NCBI GenBank assembly: GCA_905182515.1
Contig: CAJJBW010000008.1
Span: 1 to 64,000, forward strand
Direction: 5' to 3'
Origin: an uncultured Candidatus Poseidoniales archaeon
GTDB taxonomy: Archaea; Thermoplasmatota; Poseidoniia; Poseidoniales; Thalassarchaeaceae
DNA length: 64,000 nt
In this document: positions 17,845-31,639 of the stretch, one piece after another
Layout of the letters: each line of letters starts with the position of its first letter
How positions within the stretch are numbered: the stretch's first letter is position 1
Program-made: the position numbers and the translations under genes
Notes under the pieces: model-generated
Databases searched by the model: none
The model's input: the letters and a program-made list of their open reading frames with translations, nothing else
Told to the model about the DNA's origin: nothing

Positions 17845-17923
17845 TTGTTAGGCGCGAACATATACCCTTTCAAAACCGATTCGGTTACATTTATTCAAAT
17901 GGAGGGGGCATGTCGGATTAGAT

Positions 17924-28408: not shown

Positions 28409-29647
28409 ATGGACGGGAATATTTTTGAAAAAATCCTCGGACAGGAAAGCCTCTTTATTGACAGAAAGGCTTTCGACCACGCATTTGAACCATCAAGACT
28501 ACCTCATAGGGATCACGAAGTAAATTCTCTGGTAAAAAACTTAGTTGATGCCCTACAAGGGCATATTCCCTCAAATATGTTATTGTATGGGGTACCAGGG
28601 GCTGGAAAGACTGTAGTTACTAGATACGTTTTAGCGCAACTTAGGGAGAAAGGAAATGAGTTGAATCAGAATGTTTGTACTTATGAGGTAAATTGCAGAA
28701 GTGTAGATACGAAATACAGAGTTGTGCAATACATGGCCGCTCAACTTTACGAACGAGGTGATCACATTGTCCCATTCACTGGTTGGCCAACAGATCGTGT
28801 ATTGGAAACACTTGTCCAACGAATGGATAGGCTAGGCGGAGTTCACATTATAGTCCTTGATGAGATTGATAATTTGGTCTCTAGGGCTGGCGATGGTTTA
28901 CTCTATAATTTGACTAATCTCAACACTAGATTAACAAAAGCCAGGTGTTGCATAATCGGCATAAGTAACGATTTAAATTTTACACAACAATTGGATCCAA
29001 GAGTAACTTCAAGACTCAGTCAAGAAGATATTGTATTTCATCCATATGGGGCATTAGAAATCGAAAATATTCTATCAGAAAGAGTTGAAAAAGGACTGAA
29101 AGAAGATGTGCTCCAAACTGGTGTAGTTGGTTTATGCTCTGCATTGGCAGCACAAGAGCACGGCGATGCACGTAGGGCACTTGATTTATTACGAATTTCT
29201 GTACAAAAAGCTGAACAAAGCTCCCAATGTAAAGTAGATACTAGACACGTTAAGATGGCACAAAGCCAACTCGAATATGATCAAGTTACTCCTGTCCTAA
29301 AGACACTTCCATTGCATCAAAAACTAGTTTTGTTCTCAATATGTTTGAACGAACAAAATGGATTGAGAAATATCTCGACAGGAGATGTATTTAGGACATA
29401 TTCCGACGCCTGTATTAAAATTGAAGTTGAGGCACTGACAACCAGGAGAGTTTCTTCTCTTCTTAACGAACTGGATACATTGGGGCTAATCATTGCTAGG
29501 AATGTTAGCAAGGGCCGCGGAGGTAGGAGCAAACAAGTCAATTCTGCAATACCAAAAGCAATCGATGCGATATCTCTGATGAGTGACCACGAACCATTGG
29601 TAAATGAAGCATCTTCAGGTAAATATAAGCTTCAATCACAGTTGTAG
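28409..29647 (+). CDS. cdc6: Orc1/Cdc6 replication initiator
   Basis: AAA+ initiator that recognises the origin and loads the MCM helicase. The 412-residue protein has the family N-terminal linker FEPSRLPHRDHEV, Walker A GVPGAGKTV (about residue 61), Walker B IIVLDEIDNLVSRAGDGLLYNL, sensor 1 IIGISNDLNF, and sensor 2 HGDARRALDLLR. A C-terminal winged helix follows from about residue 300 (LPLHQKLVLFSICL and RRVSSLLNELDTLGLI). Start ATG 28409 has no strong ribosome site. Confidence 0.96.
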   Translation: MDGNIFEKILGQESLFIDRKAFDHAFEPSRLPHRDHEVNSLVKNLVDALQGHIPSNMLLYGVPGAGKTVVTRYVLAQLREKGNELNQNVCTYEVNCRSVDTKYRVVQYMAAQLYERGDHIVPFTGWPTDRVLETLVQRMDRLGGVHIIVLDEIDNLVSRAGDGLLYNLTNLNTRLTKARCCIIGISNDLNFTQQLDPRVTSRLSQEDIVFHPYGALEIENILSERVEKGLKEDVLQTGVVGLCSALAAQEHGDARRALDLLRISVQKAEQSSQCKVDTRHVKMAQSQLEYDQVTPVLKTLPLHQKLVLFSICLNEQNGLRNISTGDVFRTYSDACIKIEVEALTTRRVSSLLNELDTLGLIIARNVSKGRGGRSKQVNSAIPKAIDAISLMSDHEPLVNEASSGKYKLQSQL

Positions 29648-31321: not shown

Positions 31322-31612
31322 CAGTGTGCCCCGAGGTGTAACGGTCACCTTCATTGTGTTAACTCTGGCGCCTGACCCACCCCGGGACGTCTGTCGGACT
31401 GTGTGGTAGTCCCTTGATTCATTCCTTTCAGTCCTCTGGGGACCTTTTCACAATCCGGCCACTTGTTTGCTCCATAGATCATACCTTTCGGTCACCATGG
31501 TCTTCGACAAGTGGTTTCCCATAACGTGGTACCGTCACTCATTCTAAACCTCCGGCGTGGTGGTTTCGTCGTGACGGTGTTGCCGCTTGGGCATTTGGTC
31601 CTAAGTGTCTCT
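31322..31612 (-). ncRNA. Structured RNA of unknown class, about 290 nt
   Basis: A G+C-rich island without an open frame in AT-rich surroundings. Four consecutive helices pair with near-perfect complementarity: 31571-31578 with 31531-31538; 31507-31514 with 31459-31466; 31449-31457 with 31395-31403; 31378-31388 with 31328-31338. Three mismatched positions are G-U pairs only if the minus strand is transcribed (on the plus strand they are A-C), and a GACC-GAAA-GGT tetraloop also favours minus. An ATTAAATAA TATA box at 31631-31639 lies about 25 bases upstream. AUGA recurs on the 3' side of each hairpin, and ACA follows the last two. Conserved RNase P and SRP blocks are not visible, so the family is open: divergent RNase P RNA, an H/ACA-like RNA, or a leader of the CoA gene. 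Confidence 0.7.
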
Positions 31613-31630
31613 ACTTGAAGAACATCTCGG

Positions 31631-31639
31631 TTATTTAAT
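31631..31639 (-). promoter_or_regulatory. TATA box for the structured RNA
   Basis: ATTAAATAA on the minus strand, overlapping the stop codon of the upstream large winged-helix gene. It is about 25 bases before the inferred RNA 5' end near 31610, the normal archaeal spacing. Confidence 0.45.

Follow-up and report, generated by a model that had tools for sequence, protein, structure and literature searches.

Archaeal box H/ACA guide RNAs carry one hairpin or, rarely, two or three (reviewed in PMC7991803). Among those with three is the HgcG/Pab40 family (RF00064), represented by Pf7 in P. furiosus and Afu4 in A. fulgidus. In P. abyssi, motif 1 of Pab40 guides L2588, motif 2 is assigned to L1932 and motif 3 guides L2016, while motif 2 of A. 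fulgidus Afu4 is the reported guide of L2601 (PMC4652768). L2016 is the position of E. coli 1915 (PMC2584109); from numbering offsets L2588 would be E. coli 2496, and a rough offset of the same kind places L2601 near the A-loop. In a Haloferax volcanii RNA, a long spacer lies between two hairpins; HP1 has the equivalent of 2586 as its predicted target, and HP2, a homologue of Pf7 stem III, is a predicted guide for the equivalents of 1915 and 1917 (PMC2584109). This layout is unlike that of the RNA described below, whose hairpin 4 nonetheless resembles HP2 in its predicted target.

The window examined here, a stretch of 64,000 nucleotides from an uncultured Candidatus Poseidoniales archaeon, carries a conserved four-hairpin RNA on its minus strand at positions 31325-31593. 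With a probability of about 0.93, it belongs to the box H/ACA guide RNAs, as a divergent member of the HgcG/Pab40 family that has four hairpins instead of three. Hairpins 2 to 4 are shared with known members as motifs 1 to 3, whereas the extra 5' hairpin, the absence of an ANA box from hairpins 1 and 2, and the failure of the Rfam model to recognize the RNA set it apart. A fourth hairpin has not been seen in known members of the family.

Structure and conservation

An earlier sequence-only reading had placed an unassigned, structured RNA, unlike RNase P or SRP RNA, within a G+C-rich island without an open reading frame on the minus strand at 31322-31612. The composition agrees (G+C of 0.47-0.54, against about 0.3-0.35 in the flanks), and no open reading frame was found on the minus strand of this interval. 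That strand folds at -103.9 kcal/mol compared with -82.8 +/- 4.65 kcal/mol for shuffled versions (z = -4.54), and none of 200 shuffles equaled it. A structured RNA does occupy the interval, the conserved portion of which is confined to 31325-31593 by an alignment of 30 genomes and by matches to two covariance models, R1 built from hairpins 3 and 4 (31325-31457) and R2 built from hairpin 1 (31518-31593). The RNA occurs once in the window's genome.

A DNA search recovered homologues from 32 of 59 relatives, every one in the window's own family (f1), and all four hairpins are visible in the 30-genome alignment. Both sides have changed in 13 of the 35 pairs in hairpins 3 and 4 and in 25 of the 39 pairs in hairpins 1 and 2. 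The corresponding covariation scores, 0.291 (0.163 in shuffles) and 0.414 (0.158 in shuffles), each lie above all 500 shuffles, and slid controls reach at most 0.101. Compensatory changes of the kind that the earlier reading proposed to look for in relatives are therefore present in all four hairpins. Together, the fold and the covariation show that the structure is real and is used as a single-stranded RNA of the minus strand. The columns that are invariant in the 30 sequences are largely the pocket strands, the GA and AUGA of the kink-turns, and the ACA boxes. Not every imperfection in the helices is a G-U pair, as had been supposed, since there are bulges and mismatches as well (C.A and G.G in hairpin 4, U.U at the top of hairpin 2, and an A bulge in hairpin 1).

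Two irregular copies were encountered among the relatives. One genome holds a second, partial copy comprising only hairpins 3 and 4 (G006:C54:12574-12690; 94% identical), possibly the product of contamination or of a fragmented contig. In another (G284:C31, locus L190), the match is split between hairpins 3 and 4 by an assembly gap, marked by a run of N and repeated flanking sequence.

H/ACA features of the four hairpins

Each hairpin consists of a lower stem, an internal pocket and an upper stem, with covariation in all four, and each carries a mostly invariant kink-turn composed of a 5' GA and a 3' NNN-GA. The AUGA noticed previously on the 3' side of the hairpins does recur, and can now be described more precisely as the 3' strand of the kink-turn. 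All positions given below are on the minus strand.

Hairpin 1 (31518-31591), found only in the order Poseidoniales, is defined by compensatory pairs and by a pocket (5' GCAAC, 31579-31583; 3' ACC(A), 31527-31530) that is nearly invariant in f1 and in the sister family f2. Its kink-turn is formed by GA at 31569-31570 and AAUGA at 31539-31543. Eight base pairs plus two sheared GA pairs separate pocket from bulge, giving the ten layers described for such RNAs (PMC4652768). Counts made by hand give about 9-10 layers from pocket to kink-turn in hairpins 1, 2 and 4, and 9-12 in hairpin 3 depending on the register; in archaeal H/ACA RNAs the expected distance from the pocket up to the K-turn or K-loop is about 8-11 layers. 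At its apex, hairpin 1 has the loop GCCGGAG (31551-31557), which hardly varies across most of f1 but could not be discerned in the f2 sequences read.

Hairpin 2 (31459-31514), delimited by invariant columns, covariation and the alignment of homologues to HgcG, has pocket strands CGAAG (31502-31506) and GCAA (31467-31470) and a kink-turn of GA (31492-31493) and UAUGA (31479-31483). Invariant columns, covariation and guide comparison define hairpin 3 (31396-31456), with its guide strands at 31442-31447 and 31405-31410 and its kink-turn of GA (31432-31433) and AAUGA (31419-31423). Hairpin 4 (31329-31387), recognized from invariant columns, covariation and a predicted target in 23S helix 69, combines pocket strands GGGUCA (31373-31378) and GUUAC (31338-31342) with a kink-turn of GA (31364-31365) and AAUGA (31351-31355).

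The ACA sequences that had been pointed out after the last two hairpins prove to be H/ACA boxes invariant in 30 of 30 sequences. The first, 3' of hairpin 3, is at 31392-31394; the second, at 31325-31327, lies 15 nt past the upper stem of hairpin 4 and constitutes the 3' end of the conserved RNA. Hairpins 3 and 4 are thus followed by an ANA box, 14-16 nt beyond the upper stem, and hairpins 1 and 2 are not; no conserved ANA box was found in the alignment 3' of either. Some motifs of the Pyrobaculum H/ACA-like RNAs also do without an ANA box (PMC4652768), but their lower stems are reduced or absent, whereas those of the window RNA are kept at 8-9 bp and covary.

Relationship to the HgcG/Pab40 family

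Rfam scans of the window, both at gathering thresholds and at E 10, yielded only a tRNA located elsewhere in the window and chance matches, and the window copy has no match to RF00064 at E 10. Its link to that family runs via intermediates. The R1 model recovers homologues from 117 of 293 Thermoplasmatota genomes. These comprise almost every f2 member searched, together with family f3 of the same class and several further families. When 14 of these homologues were scanned with Rfam, 12 matched RF00064. A single homologue (L141) exceeds the gathering score of 77, with 92.7 bits and an E value of 1.1e-24, and the other eleven fall below it, the next best at 69.1 bits, with E values from 2e-17 to 0.02 (0.0045 and 0.02 for the f2 homologues). 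The window RNA is therefore best regarded as a divergent HgcG RNA whose Rfam signal has faded. Thus, the RNA is no longer unassigned, and of the RNase P, SRP and H/ACA models that had been suggested as a check, H/ACA was the right class even though the window copy itself escapes detection.

Through the homologues, hairpins 2, 3 and 4 align with Pab40 motifs 1, 2 and 3. R2 located hairpin 1 in all nine f2 homologues fetched and in none of 11 loci from other families. It is either an addition of the order Poseidoniales or too diverged elsewhere to be recognized.

Predicted rRNA targets

In the proposed role, each hairpin would bind L7Ae at its kink-turn and also Cbf5-Nop10-Gar1. The two strands of its pocket would pair with the rRNA flanking a single uridine, which Cbf5 would be guided to turn into pseudouridine. 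Transcription, assembly into an RNP and pseudouridylation are all predictions from sequence for the window RNA. Cbf5 is encoded in the same genome (G000:C3:73228-74178), and Nop10 turned up in 27 of 30 relatives but not in the window's genome, which is 71% complete. In G003 (contigs C6 and C43) and G036 (C1, at 863482 and 1377648), the genes for 16S and 23S rRNA lie apart from each other.

Pocket strands complementary to the rRNA flanking an unpaired U-N dinucleotide (bracketed below) are found for every hairpin except hairpin 3 of the window's clade. For hairpins 1, 2 and 4, the best 23S sites are GGU[UU]GUUGC, UUGC[UA]CUUCG and GUAAC[UA]UGACCC, respectively, each in the own rRNA of eight of eight genomes. 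By alignment to E. coli rrlB, these would direct hairpin 1 to U2606 in the peptidyl transferase loop, hairpin 2 to U2496 at the edge of that loop, and hairpin 4 to U1915 in helix 69. Presumably these three positions equal yeast pseudouridines 2258, 2865 and 2975. Using wobble pairs, the pocket of hairpin 2 also fits a second 23S site, UUGU[UG]CUUUG (E. coli about 2610; position 2606 of the G003 23S rRNA).

With the register left free, shuffled pockets did as well in 117 of 300 trials for hairpin 1 and 45 of 300 for hairpin 4, which is weak and not significant alone, and in 11 of 300 for hairpin 2 and 15 of 300 for hairpin 3, which is moderate. In hairpin 1 the register is dictated by closing pairs that covary, so a second test kept the register fixed; a fully complementary site then has a chance probability of 0.0175 for each of hairpins 1 and 2 and 0.0375 for hairpin 4. 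The predicted targets of hairpins 2 and 4 match known Pab40 targets, which supports these two sites independently. Like Pab40, the RNA has three tandem motifs (hairpins 2 to 4), the third of which is complementary to the equivalent of E. coli 1915. The assignment of hairpin 1 to U2606 is the least certain, and this hairpin pairs with just 3 nt on its 3' side.

Altered guides in hairpin 3

Throughout f2, and in the majority of f1 genera that keep the older guides, the hairpin 3 strands AUGGGU and ACAACC form 6 + 6 pairs with the 23S A-loop, GGUUGU[UC]GCCCAU, which would make U2555 the target. This is not the L1932 given for Pab40 motif 2 (PMC4652768). No other rRNA site for these strands comes close to the A-loop fit, such a site arose in 0 of 400 shuffled rRNAs in fixed register, and similar guide strands were read in other families. 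U2586 (GGGUU[UA]GACC) was considered as a target and set aside; it leaves two nucleotides of the 3' guide strand unpaired and was judged less canonical than U2555.

Five genera (g1, g6, g8, g9 and g11), including that of the window, have AUAGGU-like strands (AAAGGU in the window) together with ACUACC. Both guide strands are mismatched to an A-loop that is unchanged. These mismatches, the 3-nt pairing of hairpin 1 and the missing ANA boxes of hairpins 1 and 2 would all suit an H/ACA RNA whose hairpin 1 has ceased to guide and become a structural platform, with hairpin 3 having done the same in the window's clade. That reading is unlikely, as f1 and f2 share a nearly unchanging hairpin 1 pocket that fits one 23S site, and the kink-turn and ACA box of hairpin 3 stay invariant.

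A guide RNA with a redirected hairpin can also be imagined. The new 3' strand, CUACCAC, fits 16S GUGGUAG[UC], a site whose A is absent from genera g3, g5 and g7 and from f2. Co-evolution of guide and target was entertained, as the guide change from A to U at first matched a 16S change from C to A in the genera compared, but lost its support once genus g4 proved to have this A in its 16S rRNA alongside the old guide. The 16S change was therefore earlier or independent. Hairpin 3 of the window's clade could still use the changed 16S site. It is decidedly doubtful that the full scheme holds, in which a single H/ACA RNA has expanded to four guides, two of them without ANA boxes, that all serve 23S functional centers (helix 69, the peptidyl transferase loop and the A-loop) and hairpin 3 of this clade has moved from the A-loop to 16S rRNA at about E. 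coli U555.

Gene context and alternative identities

Upstream of the RNA, a promoter-like element, ACCGAGATGTTCTTCAA (31615-31631, minus strand), lies about 22-38 nt 5' of hairpin 1 and aligns in relatives. The TATA box formerly placed at 31631-31639 is an AT-rich stretch that is not conserved. A ACCGANGNGTTCAT-like element is also present about 25-40 nt 5' of RNase P RNA in four relatives (L055-L058), and a related element precedes the window's tRNA at about 17867-17886 on the minus strand. The ACCGAnGnGTTCAT-like element thus precedes both HgcG and RNase P RNA, and possibly tRNA as well; it may be the form that the RNA-gene promoter (BRE/TATA) takes in this order.

The conserved RNA ends 37 nt before a gene on the same strand that encodes a CTP_transf_like-DUF359 fusion, and the order of winged-helix (wHTH) gene, RNA and PPAT gene is kept in f1 and, at L180-L182, in f2. 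Both observations would fit the suggestion that the RNA is a cis-acting leader of the PPAT-DPCK gene that controls CoA synthesis. This identity is nevertheless very improbable: the conserved loops match rRNA, no terminator-like site was found on the RNA's strand, and the RNA has its own promoter-like element, one that it has in common with RNase P RNA. The ends and pockets of the RNA are also of the guide type. Moreover, outside the order the family persists, with hairpins 3 and 4, and no CoA gene was noticed alongside at the three loci read. This gene order was not recognized at those loci, from f3, f18 and f6 (L183-L185), and therefore the linkage looks order-specific and the RNA phylum-wide. 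Elsewhere in the window, a Cdc6/Orc1 gene (Pfam Cdc6_C and Cdc6_lid) is found at 28409-29647 on the plus strand, so this region may lie close to an origin of replication.

A divergent RNase P or SRP RNA, to which the length near 290 nt and the many helices might point, can be dismissed, since neither RF00373 (archaeal RNase P) nor RF01857 (archaeal SRP) matches the window RNA at gathering or at E 10 and separate genes exist at other loci for RNase P RNA (33 of 36 genomes searched, with none found in the window's incomplete genome) and SRP RNA (31 of 36, including the window's genome at G000:C6:489-801). On this point the fold, the covariation and the separate loci uphold the sequence-only reading of a structured, non-coding RNA that is neither of the two.

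Implications

Read as a guide RNA, this locus brings into the HgcG/Pab40 family an order of marine archaea that is abundant, uncultured and beyond the reach of the Rfam model, and its four hairpins represent an unusual size for an archaeal H/ACA RNA. The pockets provide explicit, testable predictions of pseudouridines in the ribosomes of Poseidoniales. Furthermore, hairpin 3 and the A-loop would offer a natural case in which guide strands have changed and the rRNA target has not.
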